Origin: Microcaldota archaeon
Lineage (GTDB): Archaea > Micrarchaeota > Micrarchaeia > CABMEP01
Length of the DNA: 44,570 nt
Direction of reading: 5' to 3'
NCBI GenBank assembly: GCA_026413625.1
Contig: JAOAKO010000005.1
Coordinates: 1-44,570, forward strand
The notes below the pieces were generated by a model. The model was not told where the DNA came from. It ran no database searches and saw nothing but the letters and a program-made list of their open reading frames with translations. Below, piece after piece: positions 7,259 to 41,546 of the stretch. The position numbers were made by a program, and so were the translations under genes. The first letter of the stretch is position 1, and every line of letters starts with the position of its first letter.

Positions 7259-9010
7259 CTAAAATCCTAGAGAGGCCTGGAATGTCAGATAGAGTATATA
7301 AACCACTCCAGCTATAAGAAAAGGCGCTATGTAATCTTGATAAATGGCGGATTTTCTCCACAACCAAAGCAAAAATTTGTTGTGAGGCTTGTTTCTGCTC
7401 TCTATCAGGTCTATCAGCTCTTTGAAATACTCTCTTTCTCCGGGAGGCATCTTCGGCTCTTTCACTCTCTTAATTTCCTTTCCGTCGACAGTTTCAACCT
7501 CTTCTTGCTTTCCAATCTCTTTCTTTGCGCTTTCGTACCAGGGCGGAAGAGAGGACTTTTTACCTTTCGGTTTTTTAGCCGCCAAAAGATATTTTATGGG
7601 ATCTGCAGCTAACGGGTCTAGAACCTCAATGTAATCCTTCATGGTAATTTCCCTCTGCTTCCCTGTCTTTAAAGCCTCAATCCAAGGAATCGCTGCCGCG
7701 TCGTCGCTAATCGCCTTGATGTCAGAAGAAGAAAATCCCTCTGTAGCCCTTGCCAATCTGTCCCAATCCACATTCTTTGAAACAGGCCTTCCTTTTGCAT
7801 AATACTGAAACATGGCCTTTCTTGAAGCGTAATCTGGCTCTCCGACATAAATCAGCTTTGAAAATCTTCCAGCTCTTCTTAATGCGGGATCAACATCCCA
7901 TGGCGAGTTTGTTGCTGCAACCACTAGAACATTTTCGTTTCTTGCCTCGACCCCATCCATTTCGTAAAGCAGCTGGTTTACGGCCATTCTCATATACTGG
8001 CCGGATTCCTTCATCTGCTCTCTCCTTCCGCCCAAACCGTCAATTTCATCTATGAATATGATGCATGGCGATGCTTTTCTTGCAGCTTCAAAAATGTTTC
8101 TTATATTCTTTTCAGTGTTACCTACATACATATCCAATACGTCGCTGAGTTTAACGTTAAGAAAGTTTGCGCCTACCTCTCCCGCAGCAGCCTTCATTAT
8201 GAACGTTTTACCGCATCCGGGTGGGCCGTAAAATAGAACTCCTCCTCCTCCGAACTTTCCGTATTTTCTTGCCAAATCTGGATCTTTTAGAGGATAAACG
8301 ATGTATTCCCTAATAAGCTCCTTTACATTATCCATCCCCACTACATCCTTAAATGTAACTTTCGGCTTTGCCATGAATTTAACTGCAGAAACCCCTTCTC
8401 CGCTTGAAGCTTCCTTTTCTGATTTCTTTTTCTGTGCAGCTGCCAGATGTTCCTGAGCCTCTGTAAAATTAGGGTTAATTTCAAGGGCCTTCTGATAGTC
8501 TGCTATCGCCTCGTCATACTTCTCAAGGAACTCGTATGCCAGGCCTCGCGCGTTGTAAGCTTCGACAAAATTCGGATCTAGCTCGATAACTTTTGTAAAG
8601 TTCTCCACTCCGCTTTCGTAATCCTGCATTGATGCATAGGCAAGTCCCCTATTATAGTAAGCTTTAAGATATTCTGGATTGATGCTTATTGCCTTATTGT
8701 AATCTGCAATCGCCCTCTCAAAATCCTGCTTTCTGTAATATGCATCTCCTCTGTTATTATAAATCATCGGATTGTCTGGATCAATCTCTATCGCTTTTGT
8801 GTAGTCATCTATTGCCTTGTCATAATTCTTTTTGTTGTAGTAGCAAAGAGCCCTATTAAAATAGCACTCTAGAAATTTAGGATTAAGTATTATTGCCATA
8901 TTATAGTTCTCAATTGCCCTGTCATAGTCGCCTTGTTCGTAGTAGTAGTTTCCCTTTTCGTAATACGCCTCTGCGTCCAATACCTCTTTTTTCTCGTCAT
9001 CTTCCGCCAT
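7259..9010 (-). CDS. TPR-repeat AAA+ ATPase with C-terminal transmembrane segment
   Basis: Five to six TPRs (e.g. YNNRGDAYYRKQDFERAIADYNKAISINP), Walker A GPPGCGKT, Walker B CIIFIDEIDG, RRAGRF; C-terminal hydrophobic APFLIAGVVYILYLTF. Confidence 0.9.
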   Translation of the reverse strand: MAEDDEKKEVLDAEAYYEKGNYYYEQGDYDRAIENYNMAIILNPKFLECYFNRALCYYNKKNYDKAIDDYTKAIEIDPDNPMIYNNRGDAYYRKQDFERAIADYNKAISINPEYLKAYYNRGLAYASMQDYESGVENFTKVIELDPNFVEAYNARGLAYEFLEKYDEAIADYQKALEINPNFTEAQEHLAAAQKKKSEKEASSGEGVSAVKFMAKPKVTFKDVVGMDNVKELIREYIVYPLKDPDLARKYGKFGGGGVLFYGPPGCGKTFIMKAAAGEVGANFLNVKLSDVLDMYVGNTEKNIRNIFEAARKASPCIIFIDEIDGLGGRREQMKESGQYMRMAVNQLLYEMDGVEARNENVLVVAATNSPWDVDPALRRAGRFSKLIYVGEPDYASRKAMFQYYAKGRPVSKNVDWDRLARATEGFSSSDIKAISDDAAAIPWIEALKTGKQREITMKDYIEVLDPLAADPIKYLLAAKKPKGKKSSLPPWYESAKKEIGKQEEVETVDGKEIKRVKEPKMPPGEREYFKELIDLIESRNKPHNKFLLWLWRKSAIYQDYIAPFLIAGVVYILYLTFQASLGF

Positions 9011-18601: not shown

Positions 18602-19033
18602 TTATTTCTTTAGATTCCTTTTTAAGTAGTTTTCAATCGCATTTTTCAACGCCTGCTGCGCGAGAACAGAACAGTGCATCTTGATTGCTGGAAGGCCACC
18701 TAGCTTTTCGGCTACTTGCTTGTTTGTAATTTTCAATGCCTCGTCCAATGTCTTTCCTTTGGCCATATCTGTAACCATACTGCTAGTTGCGATTGCCGCT
18801 GCGCATCCAAGCGTCTTGAACTTTATGTCCTTGATTCTGTTTTTTTCTATCTTAAGATACAGATACATCACATCTCCGCATACGGCATTCCCTGCCTCGC
18901 CGACTGAATCCGCATCTTCAATCTCTCCCATATTATGCGGGTTCATAAAGTGTTCCATTACTTTTTGCGTATAAAGAGAAGAATTTGTTAAGCTACTTGA
19001 ATTCTTCACAGTTTTTTTGCTTCTTTTTGCCAT
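18602..19033 (-). CDS. iscU: IscU/NifU-like Fe-S scaffold
   Basis: FMNPHNMGEIEDAD, GNAVCGDVMYLYLKI, TLGCAAAIATSSM, HCSVLA; start refined to ATG preceded by GGTGAGAAT. Confidence 0.94.
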   Translation of the reverse strand: MAKRSKKTVKNSSSLTNSSLYTQKVMEHFMNPHNMGEIEDADSVGEAGNAVCGDVMYLYLKIEKNRIKDIKFKTLGCAAAIATSSMVTDMAKGKTLDEALKITNKQVAEKLGGLPAIKMHCSVLAQQALKNAIENYLKRNLKK

Positions 19034-19046
19034 ATTCTCACCGTTA

Positions 19047-20219
19047 TTAGTATGTGGTAACCCCTTCAATTTTGGGAGTAATCTCCCTTATTTTCTTTAC
19101 TGAGATTTGAATCGCCTTTATTATATAATCGACTTCCTTTTCTGTTGTTTTGTAGCCCAATGTTATCCTAAGCGAGCCGTGCGCCTTGACCGGATCTGGA
19201 TCAAGAGCAAGAAGAACGTGAGAGGGAGAAAGATTGTGGGAAGAGCATGCAGAACCTGTTGAAGCGGAAATCCCCATCGAATCTAGCATAAGAAGAAGCG
19301 CTTCCCCCTCCACTCCCACGAATCCGAAATTAACGTTGTTTGCAAGCCTATTTTTGGGATGGCCGTTTAATCTCGAACCTGGAACGGAAGAGAGAATGGA
19401 ATCGATTATTCTGTCCCTCAGTTTTTCCAATCTCCTTTTTTCTCTTTCCATTTCTTTATTTGCAATTTCCGCAGCCTTAGCAAACCCTACTATGCCCGCT
19501 ACATTTTCAGTCCCTGCTCTTTTGTTGAATTCATGCGGGCCTCCTGTAAACAATGGCTTGATTTCTAATCCCTTTCTTACATATAATGCGCCTACTCCTT
19601 TCGGACCCCCTATTTTATGGGAAGAAACAGAAAGAAGATCTATATTCATTCTTTTCACATCTATTGGCAAGTGGCAGAATGTCTGAACCGCATCTACGTG
19701 AAATGGGACACTATGCTTCTTAGCTGTCTTTCCTATTTCACCTATTGGTTGGATGGTTCCGATTTCGTTATTTGCATGCATCACTGAAATAAGAATTGTT
19801 TTTTTGGTAATTGCTCTTTCTATTTCTTTCGGATCAACCTCCCCGTATTTATTCACTGGAATTATTGTCACATCAAATCCTTCCTTTTCAAGATCCTTAA
19901 CCGTATTAAGGACAGCGTGATGTTCTACTGCGGAAGTTATAATGTGATTGCCATTTTTCTGATTCGAACTTGCAATCCCCCTTATTGCAAGGTTATCGCT
20001 TTCTGTCCCTCCAGAGGTAAAGATTATTTCTTCTGGAGAGGCATTAATTATGTCTGCAATTATTTTTCTTGAATTCTTTATTGCATCGGCAGCAATCCTT
20101 CCGTCTGCATGAAGAGAAGACGGATTGCCGAAATGTTTATCAAAATATGGCGACATGGCCCTGATTGCTTCCTTCCTGACCGGTGTCGTTGCTGCATAAT
20201 CAGCATAAATTCTTCGCAT
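19047..20219 (-). CDS. iscS: Cysteine desulfurase (NifS/IscS family)
   Basis: YADYAATTPV, FTSGGTESDNLAIRG, PLP-Lys motif SSHKIGGPKGVGALY, catalytic Cys loop STGSACSS. Confidence 0.96.
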   Translation of the reverse strand: MRRIYADYAATTPVRKEAIRAMSPYFDKHFGNPSSLHADGRIAADAIKNSRKIIADIINASPEEIIFTSGGTESDNLAIRGIASSNQKNGNHIITSAVEHHAVLNTVKDLEKEGFDVTIIPVNKYGEVDPKEIERAITKKTILISVMHANNEIGTIQPIGEIGKTAKKHSVPFHVDAVQTFCHLPIDVKRMNIDLLSVSSHKIGGPKGVGALYVRKGLEIKPLFTGGPHEFNKRAGTENVAGIVGFAKAAEIANKEMEREKRRLEKLRDRIIDSILSSVPGSRLNGHPKNRLANNVNFGFVGVEGEALLLMLDSMGISASTGSACSSHNLSPSHVLLALDPDPVKAHGSLRITLGYKTTEKEVDYIIKAIQISVKKIREITPKIEGVTTY

Positions 20220-20223
20220 TGTT

Positions 20224-20583
20224 TCACCTTCTTATTTTATCAGCTAAGCAAGACTCGCAAACGCTAGATGGAACTTCTTCGATTATTTTATGGCTCCTGC
20301 AGATGTATCCATTAATTCTGAAATGAAAACAAAGATCGCAAACGTTTTCATTGAATGGCTTATTTACATCGTATTTCTCTGAAATGTATTTTGAAATAAG
20401 CTCTTCCAATTTCTTCTTGTGTTTTCCTCTCTTTTGTTTCAAGTATTGCGAAACGGCTGCCTCTGAGACGTTCATTATTTTTGATATTTCTCTTTGCGAG
20501 TAACCTTTATATAGAAGAAATCTTGACGTTTCCTTCCTTATTGTCGGCAGTAGTTCGTTTACCATAAATTCGCATGGTATCAT
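20224..20583 (-). CDS. XRE-type HTH regulator with C-terminal Cys cluster
   Basis: MIPCEFMVNELLPTIRKETSRFLLYKGYSQREISKIMNVSEAAVSQYLKQKRG plus CDLC...C..H...CESC. Confidence 0.85.
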   Translation of the reverse strand: MIPCEFMVNELLPTIRKETSRFLLYKGYSQREISKIMNVSEAAVSQYLKQKRGKHKKKLEELISKYISEKYDVNKPFNENVCDLCFHFRINGYICRSHKIIEEVPSSVCESCLADKIRR

Positions 20584-24148: not shown

Positions 24149-24844
24149 ATGAATCTAAAAGAGAAGAAAAGTAAAATTGTAAATGATATAGACTTGGAAA
24201 AAAACATAGTGAAGCTAGTGATAGACCTTGCTATGGAGTTTGGCCAGCAGAAAAAGGGATCTTTCTTTATAATTACAAATAGAAACCTAAAACCTTACTA
24301 TACCTGGCTATATACGGACATACTTGAGAAAACAAAAGTCAAAATAAACAGCCAAAAGATACTTCCGGTAATAAGGAAATTGGCGGAATTGGACGGAGCC
24401 ATAATTATAGATGAAGACGGATATCTGATTGCGTATGGCGCCCAAATAAAAAAGATAAAGCATTATAAGGGGCATGGAACAAGGCATAGCGCCGCTTTGG
24501 GAATTTCTGAAATCCCAGGAACATTGTCTATAATTTCAAGCGAAGAGGACGGAGCGGTAAGGATAATGAAGAATGGAAAGACATTGATAGAGATAAATCC
24601 TTTCACTAAAACACCTCCAACATTAAGCGAAAAAATTGCAGAGCTTCTTACATCTCCATCTGTGCCTTTGATCGGAGGAGGAAGCATTGGGGCACTGGCA
24701 CTCGGATTAAATCCGTTCGTGGCTGCAATCGTATTCACAGGCTCTTATATAATGACGAAGAGCGGCGCAAAGAGCCTTGGAGAATTCTTAAAGAGAGGAC
24801 CTAGCGCCCTTAATGAAAAAAAGGAGAGTAAAAATGAGGAATAG
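24149..24844 (+). CDS. Diadenylate cyclase (DisA_N/DAC domain; archaeal c-di-AMP synthase type)
   Basis: DGAIIIDEDGYLIAYGA, GTRHSAALGISE, SSEEDGAVRIMKNG; C-terminal hydrophobic segment. Confidence 0.85.
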   Translation: MNLKEKKSKIVNDIDLEKNIVKLVIDLAMEFGQQKKGSFFIITNRNLKPYYTWLYTDILEKTKVKINSQKILPVIRKLAELDGAIIIDEDGYLIAYGAQIKKIKHYKGHGTRHSAALGISEIPGTLSIISSEEDGAVRIMKNGKTLIEINPFTKTPPTLSEKIAELLTSPSVPLIGGGSIGALALGLNPFVAAIVFTGSYIMTKSGAKSLGEFLKRGPSALNEKKESKNEE

Positions 24845-25492: not shown

Positions 25493-27595
25493 TTAAAGCT
25501 GACAAATTCCAGAAGAACAGCCTGAGAATTCAGAAGAAACAGTTATCTTTCCTTTCGGCTCCTCTTTCTCTGTTTTCGGCTTCCCTAGGTATATTACCTG
25601 ATCCGCCCTGCTTCCATATCTGTAAACAGTTATTCCCTTTACCCCAAGCTCATAAGCGTTCCTATATATTTCCTGCACGTCTTCAACCTTTGCTTCGTAT
25701 GGAAGGTTGACTGTCTTTGAGACTGCATTATCAACATATTTTTGGAACGCGGCCTGCATCCTCAAATGCCAGATAGGATCGATATCATATGCAGTTACAA
25801 AGAGTTCCCTTACATCCTTGGGAATTTCGCTTATCTTTTGAATTGAAAATCCATGTGAAATCTTTTCCATCAGAGATCTGCTGTAAAATCCTCTCTCAAT
25901 CGATATCGAATGGAAAAGTTTGTTCACTTCTATAAGCCTAACGTTTTCAAGAACCTGCCTATAGTATGCGACTGCAAAAAGCGGCTCTATGCCAGAAGAG
26001 ACTCCGGCTATTATTGAAAGCGAACCAGTAGGAGCGATTGTATTTAAGGTTGCATTCCTTAACTTGCTCACTCTGCTCGGATAAATAGAGAATTTGAAGT
26101 TCTGATAGCTGCCCCTTTTGCCTGCAAGCTCCTGAGAAGTATTGTAAGAAATCTGCCTAATGAATTTCATTAGTTTTTCAGCAATCATCAATGCTTCCCT
26201 GCTGTCATATCTAATCCCCAGCATTATCAATGCATCGGCAAATCCCATGACGCCCAAACCTATCTTTCTGTTTGCCTTTGTTGTCTGCTCTATTTCTTTT
26301 ACAGGTATGCTGTTGACATCAATTACATTGTCCAAGAAATGTATTGCATTCTGAATCGCAATTTCAAGCCTGTCCCAATCAAAATCGCTTCCGTCTGAAA
26401 GCACGAACTTGGTAAGATTTATGCTTCCAAGGTTGCATGATTCGTAAGGCAAAAGAGGCTGCTCACCGCACGGATTGCAAGATTCGATCTCTCCGATCTT
26501 TCTGAGCGGATGTGTCTTGTTTATTCTGTCAATGAATATCAAACCTGGATCTCCGTTCTCCCAGGCTCTTTCTGCGGCTAGATTGAATATTTCCAAAGCG
26601 GAAATTGTTTTTACAACCTCTCCGGTCCTAGGATTTATAAGCTCGTATTCGTCATCCTTTTCCACTGCCTTCATGAACTTGTCTGTAGCTGCGATTGAAA
26701 TGTTAAAGTTCCTCAATCCCCCTTCTCTTTTTGAATTTATGAATTCTATTATGTCCGGGTGATCGCATCTCAAAACGCCCATGTTTGCCCCTCTTCTTCT
26801 TCCGCCCTGTTTTATTGTCTCTGTCATTGCATCATATATCCTCATGAAAGAAACGGGGCCTGATGCGATTGACATAGTCGAACGAACGAGATCCCCCTTA
26901 GGCCTTATTCTGGAAAATGAGAATCCGGTTCCTCCTCCGCTTTGATGGATTATAGCTGCATTTTTTAAAGTGGTGAAAATGCTTTCTAATGAATCGTCTA
27001 TTGGCAAAACAAAACAGGCAGAAAGCTGGCCTATTCGAGTGCCTGCATTCATTAATGTTGGTGAATTTGGGAGAAATTCGAGATTGCACATCATTTCGTA
27101 AAATATTTTTTCTGATTTTCTTTTATCTTCCCCGTATATCGAATCTGCCTCTGAAATGTGCTTTGCAACTCTCTTGAACATCATCTTCGGAGTTTCGATT
27201 ATCTTTCCTGATATGTCCTTTTGAAGATATCTCGATGCAAGCACCTTTGTTGCATTCAAGTCAAGCTTCAGGTCGTCATAAACGCCGAAAAGAACTTTTT
27301 TCTTTTCCCTGATCTCCGCCCTTTCTCTCCTGTAATTTATGTACAGTCTTGCGATTTTTTTGTTTTCCTTAAGAAGCTCCTCAACCACTATATCCTGAAT
27401 TTCTTCAACTGTTGGAATTTTATTTGCATACAAATCCTCAAGCCTTTTGACCACTCTGTCGGACACTTTTTGCGAAAGTTTCATATCGGGAGATTTTGCT
27501 GCCTCAGTTGCCTTGAAAATTGCATTCGTTATCTTTGACTGATCAAACTTTACAATCGATCCGTCTCTCTTTTGCACCTGTTTGATTAAGGCCAT
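25493..27595 (-). CDS. nrdJ: Ribonucleotide reductase, class II (adenosylcobalamin-dependent) type
   Basis: ATP-cone N-terminus, LPNSPTLMNAG, GGGTGFSFSRIRP, NPCGEQPLLPYESCNLGSINL, NTIAPTGSLSIIAG; C-terminal Cys pair GCSSGIC; no adjacent NrdB. Start refined to MALIKQV. Confidence 0.92.
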   Translation of the reverse strand: MALIKQVQKRDGSIVKFDQSKITNAIFKATEAAKSPDMKLSQKVSDRVVKRLEDLYANKIPTVEEIQDIVVEELLKENKKIARLYINYRRERAEIREKKKVLFGVYDDLKLDLNATKVLASRYLQKDISGKIIETPKMMFKRVAKHISEADSIYGEDKRKSEKIFYEMMCNLEFLPNSPTLMNAGTRIGQLSACFVLPIDDSLESIFTTLKNAAIIHQSGGGTGFSFSRIRPKGDLVRSTMSIASGPVSFMRIYDAMTETIKQGGRRRGANMGVLRCDHPDIIEFINSKREGGLRNFNISIAATDKFMKAVEKDDEYELINPRTGEVVKTISALEIFNLAAERAWENGDPGLIFIDRINKTHPLRKIGEIESCNPCGEQPLLPYESCNLGSINLTKFVLSDGSDFDWDRLEIAIQNAIHFLDNVIDVNSIPVKEIEQTTKANRKIGLGVMGFADALIMLGIRYDSREALMIAEKLMKFIRQISYNTSQELAGKRGSYQNFKFSIYPSRVSKLRNATLNTIAPTGSLSIIAGVSSGIEPLFAVAYYRQVLENVRLIEVNKLFHSISIERGFYSRSLMEKISHGFSIQKISEIPKDVRELFVTAYDIDPIWHLRMQAAFQKYVDNAVSKTVNLPYEAKVEDVQEIYRNAYELGVKGITVYRYGSRADQVIYLGKPKTEKEEPKGKITVSSEFSGCSSGICQL

Positions 27596-27627
27596 AAAAC
27601 CACAAGTGTAAAGCACTATAAAATGAG

Positions 27628-28806
27628 CTATCCTTTTCTTGCACGCTCTACAAGATCCATTACCTTCATAGCAACTTTCTTTGCTTCATCCTGCGTTGTA
27701 TCCTTTCCAAATGTAAACCTTACAGATCCTGTAAATTTCTCTCCCTTCACGCCTATCGCTTCCAGAGCCCTGCAGTCAACGCATGTTGAGGTTATGATGC
27801 CGTTTTCTTCAAGTTGCTTGACAAGCTCACTTCCGGTTATTCCGCTGAAGCTGAAATTTATATTGTTAGGAAGCCTTCTTGTCAAATGTCCGTTTAGCTT
27901 TACAAATTTGATGTTTTCCTCTATGTAATCTATAAACATCCTCTGTAATCTGGCAAGGTTTTTCTGGTTTTTGCCCATTTCCTTATGAGCGATTTCAGCG
28001 GCGGCAGCAAATCCGACTATTGAAGCAATGCTCAGAGTTCCGGGCCTTAAGAGATTGTCTTTATTCGGAAATATTGGCTTGATGGGAATTCCGCTTTTTA
28101 CATACAAAGCCCCTATTCCCTTGGGTCCATAGCAGTGGTGCGCGTCGAAAGACATCAAATCAACATTCATCTTTCTTACATCCAGAGGCACCCATCCATA
28201 AGAGAATGTGGCATCAGTATGGAATGTAACGCTCTTTTCCTTTGCTATCCTTCCTATGTCCTCTATGTGTTGGATTGTGCCTATCTCTCCGTTTGAATGT
28301 TGAACAGAGAGGAGGATTGTCTTGGGTGTTATTTTTGACCTGACGTCAGCGATGCTCACTAATCCGTCAACATCGACTAGAAGAGTGGTGAGTGTAAATC
28401 CCTCTGTAACCATTGATTTACATGTGGAAAAAACAGGATCGTGCTCTATTGCTGAGGAAAGAATATGATTTCCTGACTGCATCTTTGCCTTAGCTACTCC
28501 CCTTATTGCTAAAACAGAGGATTCAGTTGAACCAGATGTAAATACTATCTCTTCAGGAGAAGCGTTTATTGTTTTTGCTATTTTTTCTTTTGCCTCTTCT
28601 ATAGCCAGCTTGGCCTCGCGACCATAAGAATGGAGAGAGGAGGGATTCCCGAATTTTAGCCTAAAGTATGGCTGCATAGCCTCCAAAACTTCCTCCCTTA
28701 CAGGAGTGGAGGATGCATAATCCATGAAGATTATTTTTCCTTCCGAAGCCATCGGCTTCGCAATTTTAGCCAAAGATTTGCCGGATTTAGAAACTTTTTT
28801 TGCCAT
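27628..28806 (-). CDS. NifS/IscS-like protein with altered PLP-binding site (predicted non-desulfurase)
   Basis: MDYASSTPVREEVLEAM, FTSGSTESSVLAIRG, but DAHHCYGPKG in place of SAHKxxGPKG (verified from codons GAC GCG CAC CAC TGC TAT GGA CCC AAG GGA). Confidence 0.9.
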   Translation of the reverse strand: MAKKVSKSGKSLAKIAKPMASEGKIIFMDYASSTPVREEVLEAMQPYFRLKFGNPSSLHSYGREAKLAIEEAKEKIAKTINASPEEIVFTSGSTESSVLAIRGVAKAKMQSGNHILSSAIEHDPVFSTCKSMVTEGFTLTTLLVDVDGLVSIADVRSKITPKTILLSVQHSNGEIGTIQHIEDIGRIAKEKSVTFHTDATFSYGWVPLDVRKMNVDLMSFDAHHCYGPKGIGALYVKSGIPIKPIFPNKDNLLRPGTLSIASIVGFAAAAEIAHKEMGKNQKNLARLQRMFIDYIEENIKFVKLNGHLTRRLPNNINFSFSGITGSELVKQLEENGIITSTCVDCRALEAIGVKGEKFTGSVRFTFGKDTTQDEAKKVAMKVMDLVERARKG

Positions 28807-28853: not shown

Positions 28854-29684
28854 TTACTTCATTGAATTGAACAATTTTTTCATGTAGATTGCATCCTTTT
28901 CGATGTTCGGAGACTCGGAAATGAAAACTCCATCGCATTTGAATTCATGAAGAGCCTCAAAGAGCGGCCTTAACGGAGGGATATCGTGATCCATTGTTAG
29001 GTGATTTCTCTCTCCCTTTGCTGAAAAGTTTATTGAAGACATATGGCAATGAAGAGTCTTCAGGCCTTCTTTTCCAACCTTCTTTTCTATAAGCTCCAAA
29101 ACCTCTGCATAGTCTTGCTTTTTCTTGAATCTTCCGTTATCCCTTGCGTGCAGATGCGCCCAATCGACCGTAGGCCTTATTTTATCATAACCTATCTCTT
29201 CAGAAAGAGAGTATAAATCTTCGAGAGAACCGAATGCTGTTTGCTTTCCTGTTGTCTCAGGCGACAAATGAATGTTATATCCGTTTTCCTCTATTTCTTT
29301 TGCCAGATATTTAAACTCTTTTCTCATTCTCTCATAAGCAGCGGAGTGCGAAAGTTTTAGGAAGAAACCTGGATGAAAAACAAGACGGTCGCCCCCTGCT
29401 GCATCAAGGATCTTTGCTGTCAACAAAATTTCATTCACCGTTTTTTTGTATTTTGAATTATTTTCTGAAAGTAGATTAAGATAATACGAAGCGTGCGCAC
29501 TTAAGACGATATCGTATTTCTTGGCAACAGCCCCTGCTTCCTTTGCGACATCTTCTTTCATCCTGCATCCATGCACGAATTCTAATTCAAAGGCATCCAA
29601 TCCCAGCTTGTGGGCGCACTCTATTCCTGAAACTGAGTCTCTTTTCTCGCATGAAATTGGCACTCCTGCAGGGCCGAATCTCAT
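28854..29684 (-). CDS. Endonuclease IV-like AP endonuclease / TIM-barrel
   Basis: AHASYYLNL, VFHPGFF, LSPETTGKQTAFGSLEDL, PTVDWAHLHAR, LHCHMSS metal-ligand pattern. Confidence 0.83.
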   Translation of the reverse strand: MRFGPAGVPISCEKRDSVSGIECAHKLGLDAFELEFVHGCRMKEDVAKEAGAVAKKYDIVLSAHASYYLNLLSENNSKYKKTVNEILLTAKILDAAGGDRLVFHPGFFLKLSHSAAYERMRKEFKYLAKEIEENGYNIHLSPETTGKQTAFGSLEDLYSLSEEIGYDKIRPTVDWAHLHARDNGRFKKKQDYAEVLELIEKKVGKEGLKTLHCHMSSINFSAKGERNHLTMDHDIPPLRPLFEALHEFKCDGVFISESPNIEKDAIYMKKLFNSMK

Positions 29685-29693
29685 AAAATCACT

Positions 29694-30476
29694 TCAAAGA
29701 GTGGATATTCTAAATGGAACCGGATCAAACAGCGATACATGAATGAAATAAGGAGCTGACACAAAAGGCTTGTCTAGCAGGAGTGAAACCGCTTGCATAG
29801 CCTCGATTGTGCCTATTAGGTTTGCAGTTATTCCTAGAATAGAATAGCATCCGGCTGCCTTTGCGAGTCTTTCCTTTAATTTCTTGTCTATTTTCTTTCC
29901 GTTTGAAGGAAGAGCAAAAACAGACTCGTAGCTCTGGCCCTTTGGAAGAAATATTGTGGAATACCCTCTTGTTTTTTCTGCCGCGCCAAAAACATATGGA
30001 ATTTGAAGGTCTTTTGCGGCCCTTGAAAGATATATTCGCGAAAGAACATTGTCCAGGCCGTCTATTACTATATCGTGGTTCTTCAAGATTCTAAACGCTG
30101 CTTCTTCTGAATCCACAAACTTGTCATATGTTCTTACCTTTATTGAAGGTGAGATGTCCAAAACTCTTTTCTTTATGATGTCAACTTTCTTCTTCCCAAC
30201 TACAGAATAGCTGCTGAATACTTGCCTGTTGAGATTGGATATTTCAAAAACATCTCCATCAGCAATTGTCAAGTTGCCGATCCCTGTTCTCGCGAGGAGA
30301 TCAATGGCAATTCCGCCCAATCCTCCGCATCCTATGACTGCGACATTTGCGTTTGCCAGCTTGTCCTGCTCTTTTTCTGTTATGGCGCCGATGTTTCTGG
30401 AGGAAATAATTTTGTATAAGCTGTACTCTTTCTTTGATTTATTTTCTCTATTTATTTTAATATACTTTTTAACCAT
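29694..30476 (-). CDS. E1-like (ThiF/MoeB/HesA) adenylyltransferase
   Basis: VAVIGCGGLGGIAIDLLARTGIG, DGDVFEISNLNRQ, VIDGLDNVLSR; start refined to MVKKYIKIN. Confidence 0.9.
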   Translation of the reverse strand: MVKKYIKINRENKSKKEYSLYKIISSRNIGAITEKEQDKLANANVAVIGCGGLGGIAIDLLARTGIGNLTIADGDVFEISNLNRQVFSSYSVVGKKKVDIIKKRVLDISPSIKVRTYDKFVDSEEAAFRILKNHDIVIDGLDNVLSRIYLSRAAKDLQIPYVFGAAEKTRGYSTIFLPKGQSYESVFALPSNGKKIDKKLKERLAKAAGCYSILGITANLIGTIEAMQAVSLLLDKPFVSAPYFIHVSLFDPVPFRISTL

Positions 30477-30531
30477 GTGACACCTGACGCCTTCGGCACA
30501 AGCAATAAGCAATGCCAAAGGATATTAACAA

Positions 30532-32232: not shown

Positions 32233-34989
32233 ATGCGAATATTGACTATTGAAGAAAAGAAAATAATAACCCCATTATTCAAATCGATAGTTGAAAAAAT
32301 TCCTATCGGGATAGGGGTAATAGATAAAAGCGGCGATCTCGTTCTAACAAACAAAAAAATGAAAAGAATATTCCTATATTTTGGACAAAAAACAAACTTA
32401 AACGTAAGGCTGGTAGAAGAAGAACTTTTACAAAAAATTATCAATGATATCTGGACAGGTAAAGAAAGTATTATTGACCTTGAATTTAATATCAAAGGAA
32501 TTATAAAAAATTTTAAAGCAATAACTGTGCCGATTACAAATGAAAAAAAAGAAATTTCATTTGTAATGTTAATTCTCCATGAAAGAACGAAGGAGATCCA
32601 AGATATAAAAAGGTTATCTATTGCTAAAGAAGTCATGAAGACTGCTAAATTAATCGACATCGCACTCGAAGGTAAAGAAGAAGTAGACGAAATGCTTGAG
32701 TCATTAGTAGCAGTATTTAGAAAAAATCCATACCTTGGCTGTGTTCATATTTTAAAATATGGGGAAAATCCAAAATTATATTATTACTCTTCAACTGGTC
32801 AATCTAAAAGTGAAATATTTTCATATTATAAAAAGTTTCATTTAAAAAAGGACATGTTGATTGTTCATGATATAACAAAGGGTGAATACTCACAACATAG
32901 AGAAACGACTGTTAGGTCACATTTTGGATTGATTTTAAAATTAAAATACCGGAACAAAGATTACGGAATTCTTACACTGCACTTTAAACCAGATGTTAAA
33001 CTATTTTTGGATGCGGTTAAGGCATTCAAAGAAATAGCATCAAACATATCTAAGATGATCTATAGCAAAGAAATAGAGAAGATAGAGATTGAGAGGCTTA
33101 AAGAGCTTAAAAGAATGGATATCGGTTTTAAAGCTAGCGCTGTTTGCAGATTGCTCGTAAAATATGAAAACAAAGAACCTAAAATAATTAAAGTCAATGA
33201 TGCTTTTAAGAAATTATATGGTTACTCTGAAAAAGAAGTTATAGGTAAGAATCCAAGAATATTAAAATCAGGTCTCATTCCAAAGGCAAAATATAAAGAA
33301 ATGTGGAGATCAATACTTGACAAAAACATTAGACATTGGGAAGGAGAAATAGTAAATAAAAGAAAAAACGGTGAATTAATAACTGTAAAATTGATTATAG
33401 ACACTATTTTTGAAAATGGAGAACCGAAATATTTCTTTGCAAACCACGTTGATATCACGGAACAAATGAGACTGCTACATGAAATAAACAAGCAGAATGA
33501 AAAATTGGCTGCGATTCTTAATAGCTCTTTAGATGCGATTATAGTTGGCGATAGAAAACTGAGATTTGAAATGGTTAACACGTCTTTTGAAAAAATGACC
33601 GGCTATAGTGCTTCAGAGATAATAGGAAAAGATATCCATGATTTACTTATGGCAAAGAAAGATATAAATAAAAAGAGATTGAAAAAATTCAAAAAAACAG
33701 GCAAAATCGATATATTGGGAAAGCAAGTAGAAACAGAAATAATCACTAAGGATAAAAAAATCATACCTGTGGAATTGAGCGTCAACAAATTTAAAATTGA
33801 CAACGATGAAAAGTTAGTGGCGATAATGAGAAACATTGCTGAAAGAAAAAGATTAGAAAATGAAATAATAGCAAAAGAAAAATTCTATCAAGAGATTTTT
33901 GAACATTCCGATGACGGTATTATTGTAGCTTACTATGATAGCAAAATTGGCGATTTTATAATCAAAGACATAAACAAAAGAGCATGCGAAATAAGTAAAG
34001 TTAGAAAAGAGGAGGCCATAGGTAAAGCTGCAAGAGAAATATTCAAAGGAATAGAAAAAATAGGATTATATCAAAAAGCAAGAGCTGGGATTCAGAGCGG
34101 CAAAGCTGAATACCTTCATGACGTTTTTTACAGCGATGGAAGGATATCTGGTTGGAGGGATTACTATATATTCAGATTAACAACAGATGAAGTAGTTGTA
34201 ATGTACAGAGATATTACTGAAAGAAAGGAAATGGAAAAGCTTAAGGAAAATTACAGAATAAAATTAGAGCAGGAAGTAAAAGAAAAGACACAGCAAATAA
34301 ATCAACAATTGGAACAGATTGAGCAATTGCAGAAAGCCAAGGATGAATTCATAAGAAATATGACGCATGAATTAAAAACTCCAACTTCAGTAATCTTGAC
34401 GAATTTAGAGATGCTGAAACAGATGGCGCCGATTGGCAAGGAGAAAGAGTGGCTGAAAATGATAGAAATGCTTCACAGAAATGCGGAAAGACTGAAGAAT
34501 TCGATAGACCAAATACTTAATTTAACAAGATTAAGTGCAATTCAACTCAATAAAGAGCGCATAATATTGGATGATATTGTTAATCAAGTTTACAATGATT
34601 ATTCGCCTCTAATGATGAAAAAAGGTCTTCAATTTAAAAAAGATGTCGAACCTATAGTTATAATGGCTGATAAAAACTTGTTAATATTGTTATTAAGTAA
34701 TTTAGTTTCAAATGCTATAAAATTCACAAACGAAGGAGAGATTAAACTAGAGGCAAAATCTTATGATCATACAATAATGATTGCTGTTGAAGATACTGGA
34801 ATAGGTATGACAGAAGAAGAGAGATCACATATATTTGAAAAATTCTACAAAGCAGATCCGAATTCTCCAGGCACTGGAATCGGGTTGACAATCGTAAAAG
34901 AAATAGTTGAAAAACATGGAGGAAAAATAGAGGTCAAAAGCCAAAAAGGAAAAGGAACAAGATTTGAGATTTATCTCCCAAGAGAATAA
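32233..34989 (+). CDS. Multi-PAS/GAF sensor histidine kinase
   Basis: PAS segments, GAF-like segment, H-box FIRNMTHELKTPTSV, N-box NLVSNAIKFT, G-boxes VEDTGIGM / GTGIGLTIVKEIVEKHGG. Confidence 0.95.
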   Translation: MRILTIEEKKIITPLFKSIVEKIPIGIGVIDKSGDLVLTNKKMKRIFLYFGQKTNLNVRLVEEELLQKIINDIWTGKESIIDLEFNIKGIIKNFKAITVPITNEKKEISFVMLILHERTKEIQDIKRLSIAKEVMKTAKLIDIALEGKEEVDEMLESLVAVFRKNPYLGCVHILKYGENPKLYYYSSTGQSKSEIFSYYKKFHLKKDMLIVHDITKGEYSQHRETTVRSHFGLILKLKYRNKDYGILTLHFKPDVKLFLDAVKAFKEIASNISKMIYSKEIEKIEIERLKELKRMDIGFKASAVCRLLVKYENKEPKIIKVNDAFKKLYGYSEKEVIGKNPRILKSGLIPKAKYKEMWRSILDKNIRHWEGEIVNKRKNGELITVKLIIDTIFENGEPKYFFANHVDITEQMRLLHEINKQNEKLAAILNSSLDAIIVGDRKLRFEMVNTSFEKMTGYSASEIIGKDIHDLLMAKKDINKKRLKKFKKTGKIDILGKQVETEIITKDKKIIPVELSVNKFKIDNDEKLVAIMRNIAERKRLENEIIAKEKFYQEIFEHSDDGIIVAYYDSKIGDFIIKDINKRACEISKVRKEEAIGKAAREIFKGIEKIGLYQKARAGIQSGKAEYLHDVFYSDGRISGWRDYYIFRLTTDEVVVMYRDITERKEMEKLKENYRIKLEQEVKEKTQQINQQLEQIEQLQKAKDEFIRNMTHELKTPTSVILTNLEMLKQMAPIGKEKEWLKMIEMLHRNAERLKNSIDQILNLTRLSAIQLNKERIILDDIVNQVYNDYSPLMMKKGLQFKKDVEPIVIMADKNLLILLLSNLVSNAIKFTNEGEIKLEAKSYDHTIMIAVEDTGIGMTEEERSHIFEKFYKADPNSPGTGIGLTIVKEIVEKHGGKIEVKSQKGKGTRFEIYLPRE

Positions 34990-35006
34990 AAACAAATGGT
35001 GGTTTT

Positions 35007-35366
35007 ATGAAGAAGATATTGATTATAGAAGATGAAGCAGATGTAGCCGAGAGTATTAAAATGTTACTTGAAATGAACGGCTATAAAGCGGATTACAACC
35101 TAAATCCAAAGGCTGCGATCAAAAAAGCAAAAGGATATGATCTGATATTATTGGACATCATGATGCCAGTAATGTCTGGAAGAGAGGTGCTAGCGGAATT
35201 CAAAAAAATGAAATTAAAGGTTCCAGTCTTGGTTGTAACTGCGGTTGGAATGCCGTTTGAAGTGGAAAGAGAGCTGAGCGCAAAATATTTTCCGGTAAGA
35301 GTTCTTCCAAAGACTTCCATTCATACTGATTTGATAAAAGAAATCAAAAAAATTCTAAAAGAGTGA
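35007..35366 (+). CDS. Stand-alone response regulator receiver domain
   Basis: IIEDEADV, LILLDIMMPVMSG, VTA and LPK signatures; no output domain. Confidence 0.94.
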   Translation: MKKILIIEDEADVAESIKMLLEMNGYKADYNLNPKAAIKKAKGYDLILLDIMMPVMSGREVLAEFKKMKLKVPVLVVTAVGMPFEVERELSAKYFPVRVLPKTSIHTDLIKEIKKILKE

Positions 35367-39330: not shown

Positions 39331-40392
39331 ATGGAAAGCTTAATCAAATCTGTTACAGGACACACTGAGGCTGAGTCAAATCTTGGTCCAGTCGAAAGAA
39401 TTAAGATCGCAGTCGTGGGCTGCGGTGGTGGAGGAAACAATACCCTTCAGAGACTTCTCAAATACGGTGTCAAGGGTGCAGACTTGATTGCAGTAAACAC
39501 TGACAATCAGCACTTGCTGACATTGGACGAGAGAATTCAGAAGATTCTTGTTGGTAAATCAATAACAAGAGGTCTGGGTGCTGGAGGATATGTTGACGTA
39601 GGAAGAAAGGCTGCAGAAATAGACAAGCCTTTAATAGAGAGAGCACTTAAGGATGCACAACTCGTATTCATATGTGCAGGTATGGGAGGAGGTACAGGTA
39701 CCGGAACTGCTCCTGTCGTTGCAGAGATTGCAAAGGAACAGGGCGCAATAGTGGTAGCAATGGTTACCTACCCATTCGCACTTGAAAAGGCAAGAAGATC
39801 AAAGGCAGACGAAGGTATCCAGGCGCTAAGGAAACACGCAGACAGTGTCATTATAATTGACAACAACAGACTGGTTCAGCTCGTGCCAAACCTTCCAATG
39901 AACGAGGCGTTCGGTGTCGCAGATGAGATTCTCGCAAGAGCAATCGGTGGTCTTGTCTGGACAATCACACAACCTTCATTAATCAACATCGACTTTGCAG
40001 ATGTAAGAGCAATCATGTCTGCAGGAGACGTTGGTTTCATTGCAGTAGGCGAAGGAAGAGGAACAAACAAGGTTCAGGCTGCAGCTGAAGGAGTTCTTAA
40101 GAACAGACTGCTTGATGTTGACTTTGAAGGCGCAAAGGGCGCTTTGATCCACATCTCTGGTGGAAACGACCTAACACTCGGAGACGCGATCAAGGCAGGA
40201 GAAATCATAACTGAAAGAATGGATTCAACAGCAAGCGTCAAGTGGGGCGCAAGACTCATACCGGGATATGACGGCAAGATAGAAATCGTTGCAATCGTAA
40301 CCGGAGTCAAGGGAGCAAGCGTAGTTGGAGTCCCGCTTGAGGAACAAAAGGCTGAATCACCAGTATACGGTGACATTGAGATAATTGGTTAA
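39331..40392 (+). CDS. ftsZ: FtsZ paralog A
   Basis: [40 protein letters not shown]. Confidence 0.96.
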
Positions 40393-40401
40393 TTTGATTA
40401 G

Positions 40402-40420
40402 CTGGCTGCTTTGCAGCCAG
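40402..40420. other. Intercistronic perfect hairpin CTGGCTGC-TTT-GCAGCCAG
   Basis: 8-bp GC-rich stem between the two ftsZ genes. Confidence 0.6.
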
Positions 40421-40451
40421 TCCAGTTTAATTATTAGCTGGAAAATTATAT

Positions 40452-41546
40452 TTGAGGCAGGGTGTTAAAATGGAAAGTTTCCTGAGTTCGTTTACATCTG
40501 GAACCACAGTTAAGGCGGCCAAGGCACCGGAGAAGGATTACCTTGGATCTGACAAGATCAGAATCTCTGTAGTAGGAGTTGGTGGAGGAGGATGCAACAG
40601 CATCACAAGAATAATGAGATCTGGAATAAAGACAGCAGACACAATAGCGATTAACACCGATGTAAACCACCTAAAGATAACAGAGGCCCACAAGAGATTG
40701 TTAATCGGTCAGTCGATAACGAGAGGTCTTGGTGCCGGAGGATATCCAGAGGTTGCAAGAAAGGCTGCCGAGGCATCAAAGGACAAATTAGCAGAGGCAT
40801 TAAGCGGAGCAGATTTAGTATTTCTTACAGCAGGTATGGGAGGGGGTACAGGTACAGGTGCTGCACCAGTGGTTGCAGAAGTTGCTAAGAGAGAGGGCGC
40901 GATAGTAGTCGGTATGGTCACATACCCGTTCTCTCTTGAGAGAGCAAGAACAGAAAAGGCAAGATGGGGATTGGAAGAATTAAGAAAGGCATGCGACACT
41001 GTGGTTGTAATAGACAACAACAGATTGGTCCAATACGTGCCAAACCTTCCAATGAACGAGGCGTTCAACGTAGCAGATGAGATTCTTGCAAGAGCAATAA
41101 AGGGAATCTCTGACACAATTATGACCCCATCATTAATTAACATCGACTTTGCGGACATAAGAGCAATCATGGGCAACGGTGGAGTTGCAATGCTCTCCGT
41201 TGGAGAAGGAAAGGGAACGAACAAGGTTGAAGACGCAATAAAGAGCACGCTCGAACACCCGTTGCTTGATGTCAGCTACGAAGGTGCAAAGGGAGCTCTC
41301 ATTCACATTGCAGGTGGAGCGAACCTTACGCTTGGTGAGGCAACCAAGATCGGTGAGGGAATAACTGCAGCGTTTGACAACAATGCAAACGTCATCTGGG
41401 GAGCAAGACTCATGCCAGAGCTTGGCGACAAGGTTGTTGTAACTGCAATCATGACTGGAGTTACATCCACATCATTGCTTGGCAACCTTGAGCCACAGAA
41501 ACAGGAACACAAGGCATATGAAATGATAGAAGAAGTGGTTTGGTAA
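40452..41546 (+). CDS. ftsZ: FtsZ paralog B
   Basis: [41 protein letters not shown]. Confidence 0.96.

Follow-up and report, generated by a model that had tools for sequence, protein, structure and literature searches.

IscS*, a lysine-less IscS paralog of the archaeal family Micrarchaeaceae and probable pseudoenzyme

We propose that IscS*, a paralog of the cysteine desulfurase IscS/NifS encoded on contig JAOAKO010000005.1 of a Microcaldota archaeon (44,570 nucleotides, hereafter the window), is a conserved pseudoenzyme that acts by binding, either as the subunit without catalytic activity in a heterodimer with IscS (IscS:IscS*) or as a protein on which components of the sulfur and Fe-S machinery dock, a reading to which we assign a probability of roughly 60%. 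On this reading the ancestor of the family Micrarchaeaceae duplicated iscS, and one copy remained a cysteine desulfurase beside iscU. The other, IscS*, lost the Schiff-base lysine (now histidine), the loop with the catalytic Cys and a number of contacts to the cofactor, with the fold kept. IscS* would form neither a PLP aldimine nor a persulfide, and we infer both the partner and the exact role of such binding, whether as IscS:IscS* subunit or as docking protein.

The assembly of the source genome totals 484 kb at 54% completeness and carries one further copy of the IscS/NifS type, the canonical paralog (Table 1). IscS* matches the aminotransferase class V profile (PF00266, fold type I) at 225 bits, and its best NCBIfam match is NifS (TIGR03402) at 359.5 bits, under the cut-off of 530.75, while the canonical paralog scores 521.9 bits and likewise falls slightly under that cut-off. 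An AlphaFold2 model of IscS*, computed from a six-row alignment, has a pLDDT of 82 and a pTM of 0.83, and its top matches in the PDB are human NFS1 followed by IscS of Archaeoglobus fulgidus and other bacterial IscS/NifS structures, with TM-scores of about 0.87-0.90. The full IscS fold is kept according to this model, in agreement with an initial sequence-only reading, which held that the open reading frame is intact and that the fold and the EH motif persist. The Lys-rich N-terminal tail of IscS* (28741-28806) is modeled with low confidence; it is also found in the ortholog of the same genus and is missing from the more distant one.

The two orthologs come from 'Candidatus Micrarchaeum sp. 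SulCav_AS07-7_42_18' (G001), which belongs to the same genus as the genome of the window, and from 'uncultured archaeon LFW-242_1' (G002), which belongs to the same family. Residues were numbered by alignment with E. coli IscS, the sequence of which was checked against PDB 1p3w, and the resulting assignments are collected in Table 1.

Table 1. Coordinates of IscS*, its active-site positions and neighboring genes in the window.
Feature	Position	Strand	Remark
IscS*, lysine-less and Cys-loop-less IscS/NifS paralog, 392 aa	27628..28806	-	intact ORF
Codon 224 (CAC), encoding His where E. coli IscS has its PLP Schiff-base lysine, K206; His in 3/3 orthologs	28135..28137	-	alignment
H223 (E. coli H205), kept in 3/3 orthologs	28138..28140	-	alignment
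D221, replaces Ser203; D, D, G across the three orthologs	28144..28146	-	alignment
F201, replaces Gln183; F, F, Y across the three orthologs	28204..28206	-	alignment
D198 (E. coli D180), kept	28213..28215	-	alignment
G173, replaces Asn155; G, G, A across the three orthologs	28288..28290	-	alignment
H122 of EH motif (E. coli H104), kept	28441..28443	-	alignment
STCVDCR, remnant of the catalytic-Cys loop	27769..27789	-	alignment; Cys not conserved in orthologs
R363 of GSVR (E. coli R354), kept in 3/3 orthologs	27718..27720	-	alignment
Ribonucleotide reductase (ATP cone), next gene downstream of IscS*	25493..27616	-	adjacency kept in 3/3 genomes
AP-endonuclease-2-type TIM barrel (endonuclease IV-like), upstream neighbor in 3/3 genomes	28854..29684	-	
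ThiF/MoeB-like E1 adenylyltransferase, two genes upstream of IscS* in 3/3 genomes	29694..30518	-	
Canonical IscS paralog (SSHK, STGSACSS), presumed active	19047..20219	-	
IscU scaffold, overlaps canonical iscS; same order in 3/3 genomes	18602..19069	-	

The motif that normally carries the Schiff-base lysine reads DAHHCYGPKG in IscS*, and the first reading, that the lysine has become histidine, holds at the position of E. coli K206 in all three proteins. The other divergent motifs that it quoted against the canonical paralog (HSNGEIG, HTDATFSYG and GSTESSV) are likewise present as given. In IscS structures N155, S203 and T243 take part in PLP binding, and the T243 loop of the homodimer completes the phosphate site of the partner subunit. 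The equivalent of T76 is also kept in IscS* of the window. The T243 equivalent is methionine in the G002 ortholog and the loop around it is one of the most poorly conserved parts of IscS*, so that a composite active site shared between subunits is unlikely and a structural or regulatory function would be the likelier one. IscS* thus resembles E. coli IscS in its fold, EH motif, D180, H205 and R354 but differs in the absence of K206, Q183, S203, N155 and the C328 loop. Both Lys and Cys are present in 28/28 canonical proteins aligned from the class, including the three paralogs of the family. Canonical IscS has 83 columns with conservation of 90% or more; all three IscS* proteins keep the residue in 49 of these and all three depart from it in 17, mostly at active-site and Cys-loop positions. 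When the DNA pattern for AHHxYGPKG was run against 301 genomes of the phylum, only the three IscS* genes matched.

The canonical Cys loop (STGSACSS...PSHVL) is longer by eight residues than its counterpart in IscS*, which reads STCVDCRAL in the window, and this shortening is found in all three orthologs. What had been described as a CxxC-like replacement, STCVDC, is private to the genome of the window, as the other two orthologs read STSIDG and TTSLND at this position. Hence the conserved part is the shortened loop rather than either cysteine, and the metal or Fe-S site that the motif had hinted at is rejected, and without a conserved Cys a Cys-ligand role is impossible for IscS* in general. 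Measured against catalytic IscS/NifS proteins, IscS* has the fold but lacks K206 and the C328 loop (with the Cys absent from two of the three orthologs) and does not reach the TIGR03402 cut-off.

The conservation of IscS* rests on three sequences, from three genomes of the order, and these point to long maintenance. IscS* of the window is 71 and 57% identical to its orthologs in G001 and G002, respectively, and its canonical paralog is 68 and 62% identical to the counterparts in those two genomes. Because the same histidine is encoded by differing synonymous codons (CAC, CAT and CAC), and because neighboring genes are shared, a sequencing error at the CAC codon is excluded, and a retained lysine, which would have refuted the first reading, is found in neither of the other orthologs. 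Differences between the window and G001 IscS* genes amount to 20% of first, 17% of second and 62% of third codon positions, and dN is 0.214 for IscS* versus 0.230 for the canonical copy, with no stops; as dS is saturated, dN and differences by codon position were used in place of dN/dS ratios. Loss of catalytic residues and purifying selection on the remainder are thus both found, and IscS* is a predicted pseudoenzyme that has been maintained for long. This lends good support to the earlier suggestion of a repurposed, probably non-desulfurase function rather than a decaying gene, given that both the replacement of Lys by His and the missing Cys loop recur in intact frames of two genera that evolve at a rate like that of the active paralog. 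A pseudogene or an assembly error is ruled out by the orthologs, the synonymous changes at His224 and the constraint on codon positions.

In a tree of 52 proteins the three IscS* form one clade (100/100), which joins the three canonical copies of the family at 100/97, and a smaller taxon set gave the same grouping with weaker values (55/92). The stem of the IscS* clade measures 0.51 changes per site versus 0.10 for the canonical copies, while later branch lengths are similar. This grouping and the long stem indicate that iscS was duplicated in or before the ancestor of the family, after which IscS* first changed rapidly and then came under constraint. In the same tree, which does not include A. 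fulgidus IscS (compared here through its structure and the literature), other lysine-less IscS proteins form a separate clade (100/98), so that IscS* lost its lysine independently of them and the tree requires at least three such changes. Membership of IscS* in that lysine-less clade, of which locus L040 is typical, is therefore rejected among the proteins in the tree.

That archaea contain dead, lysine-less IscS proteins is already known, with one of the two catalytic residues lost, and IscS* has lost both. The IscS of A. fulgidus has Asp in place of Lys and, according to a passage in PMC7585200 citing Marinoni 2012, Yamanaka 2013 and Pagnier 2014, shows no desulfurase activity, and its Cys ligates a [2Fe-2S] cluster on IscU (PMC7585200). 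In a fold search its structures (PDB 4eb5, 4eb7, 4hvk and 4r5f) are 39-40% identical to IscS* and share both the IscS fold and the replacement of the Schiff-base lysine, but IscS* has His rather than Asp, is not encoded beside iscU and has no conserved counterpart of the cluster-ligating Cys, so that its loss goes further. IscS1 of Methanosarcina acetivorans was reported to lack the catalytic Lys beside an active paralog, IscS2 (PMC7585200); likened by description only, it resembles IscS* in that arrangement but differs in being discussed with IscU1. Compared with these two known cases, A. fulgidus and one Methanosarcina paralog, the loss described here is probably independent, more extensive and maintained. 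In E. coli IscS the K206A, H104Q and Q183E variants have no desulfurase activity (PMC9978102), and as two of these three positions are changed in IscS* and the Cys loop is lost, IscS* is predicted to lack this activity.

Lysine-less IscS proteins are also found elsewhere. The pattern [AS]HHx[YF]GPKG was scanned across 84,980 species genomes and matched 21 stretches, five of which encode NifS/IscS, namely two IscS* orthologs, one protein from an archaeon (SZUA-158) and two from Deltaproteobacteria; the remaining 16 did not match the protein and were attributed to chance. Within the SZUA-158 phylum, of which 23 genomes were examined, the lysine of lysine-less IscS is replaced by His, Arg or Thr, and the separate lysine-less clade comprises proteins with His (L040/L104 and L044/L057), Arg (L105, L109, L110 and L112) and Thr (L117, L123, L128 and L132). 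In nine genomes of this phylum (G306-G314; loci L104-L112) a lysine-less iscS with His or Arg lies directly before a Lys-bearing iscS on the same strand, and iscU follows the pair in both loci that were read further (L133:2122-5128 and L134:1660-4761). Such tandem pairs suggest a mixed active/inactive IscS complex and, coming from a second archaeal phylum, offer a supporting analogy for a partner role of IscS*. Copies with His or Arg retain the Cys loop (SGSPC, SGSACSS), and in those whose SLR position is readable the arginine is missing; IscS* shows the reverse, having lost the Cys loop and kept the arginine. The two deltaproteobacterial proteins (L057:5087-6694 and L044:1581-3458) have His for Lys in SAHHFYGPKG, keep the Cys loop and have lost the SLR arginine, with iscU directly downstream. 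A search of an open-licence library of papers turned up none that deals with IscS* or with archaeal loci pairing an active and an inactive IscS in tandem. If lysine-less copies are non-catalytic partners, archaeal Fe-S and sulfur assembly may commonly use mixed complexes of active and inactive IscS.

Three further details of these loci were noted. L133 also carries a second NifU-like protein and nadA. An IscS paralog type with Thr at the Schiff-base position, for example in SAHTMYGPKG, occurs at L117, L123, L128, L129, L130 and L132, and L117 has an additional paralog with SSNLIHGPKG.

In favor of a binding role, every genome that bears IscS* also encodes an IscS-IscU pair of the active type no more than about 10 kb away, at 8 kb in the window. 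Against it, IscS* lies outside the iscSU operon, the equivalents of R354, H104, D180 and H205 are kept beyond the needs of a pure scaffold, and the K206A variant of E. coli IscS still retains some PLP (PMC9978102). The gene order E1, TIM barrel, IscS* and ribonucleotide reductase is the same in all three genomes, and these surroundings allow a sulfur-transfer role but do not show one. In an unlikely alternative, IscS* is an adaptor that works with the ThiF/MoeB-like E1 and passes persulfide from the active IscS to the E1 and a ubiquitin-like sulfur carrier, serving the thiolation of tRNA or the synthesis of cofactors. The E1, two genes upstream in all three genomes, aligns with MoeB and Uba4, its close orthologs (>50% identity) occur, like IscS*, only in this family, and the genome of the window encodes a ThiS-type ubiquitin-like protein (a 69-aa frame) above the Pfam cut-off. 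However, the endonuclease-IV-like gene between the E1 and IscS* is widespread in the class (62/98 genomes) and in G002 an opposite-strand gene separates it from IscS*, so that the linkage may be passive, and the ThiS-type match is absent or under the Pfam cut-off in G001 and G002.

The kept residues bear on another reading, in which the histidine replaces the lysine functionally, with PLP or PMP bound non-covalently and His224 acting as acid-base as in ColD/E1, or with a metal bound by His122, His223, His224 and Asp198. His224 is invariant in the three orthologs, and the 3-dehydratases ColD, E1 and SpnQ share the aminotransferase fold and have His for the catalytic Lys (PMC8987622), although they belong to another subfamily with other substrates and are likened by description only. 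We consider such a replacement improbable, as the contacts at Q183, N155 and S203 are lost (one ortholog also lacks that at T243), the phosphate cup is occupied by Asp or Gly, and the neighbors of IscS* are not sugar-pathway genes; lysine-less IscS proteins elsewhere have His, Arg or Thr, or Asp in A. fulgidus (PMC7585200), which makes His one of several replacements. There is only a slim chance that IscS* is an IscS-fold enzyme in which these same four residues build a new active or metal-binding site where PLP would sit, with chemistry of a non-PLP or PMP-His kind. It is very doubtful that IscS* works like A. fulgidus IscS, as a desulfurase-inactive protein with a loop Cys ligating a [2Fe-2S] cluster on IscU: both have the same fold and no Lys (PMC7585200), and the remnant loop in the window has two Cys, but both Cys are missing from the other two orthologs, which share the shortened loop, and IscU is not encoded beside IscS*. 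That IscS* is a recently dead gene heading for loss, or an assembly error, is scarcely credible despite its destroyed active site, and is already refuted: the frames are intact in three species from two genera, protein identity is 57-71% although third positions are saturated, and the surroundings are conserved.

The window has several other features of interest. Directly upstream of canonical iscS, a small helix-turn-helix protein with Cys pairs (20224-20583) is encoded in all three genomes and is possibly an Fe-S-sensing regulator of iscSU. The gene at 24149-24844, whose product has a diadenylate cyclase domain of the DisA type (PF02457), comes just before that of a Bud32-like kinase, in an order shared with G001 and G002. 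A large histidine kinase with multiple PAS domains precedes a response regulator (32233-35366) in this very small archaeal genome. TPR repeats are fused to an AAA ATPase in a protein that ends with a hydrophobic stretch (7259-9010), and a tandem pair of similar genes at 39331-41546 appears FtsZ-like as judged by reading of the sequence.
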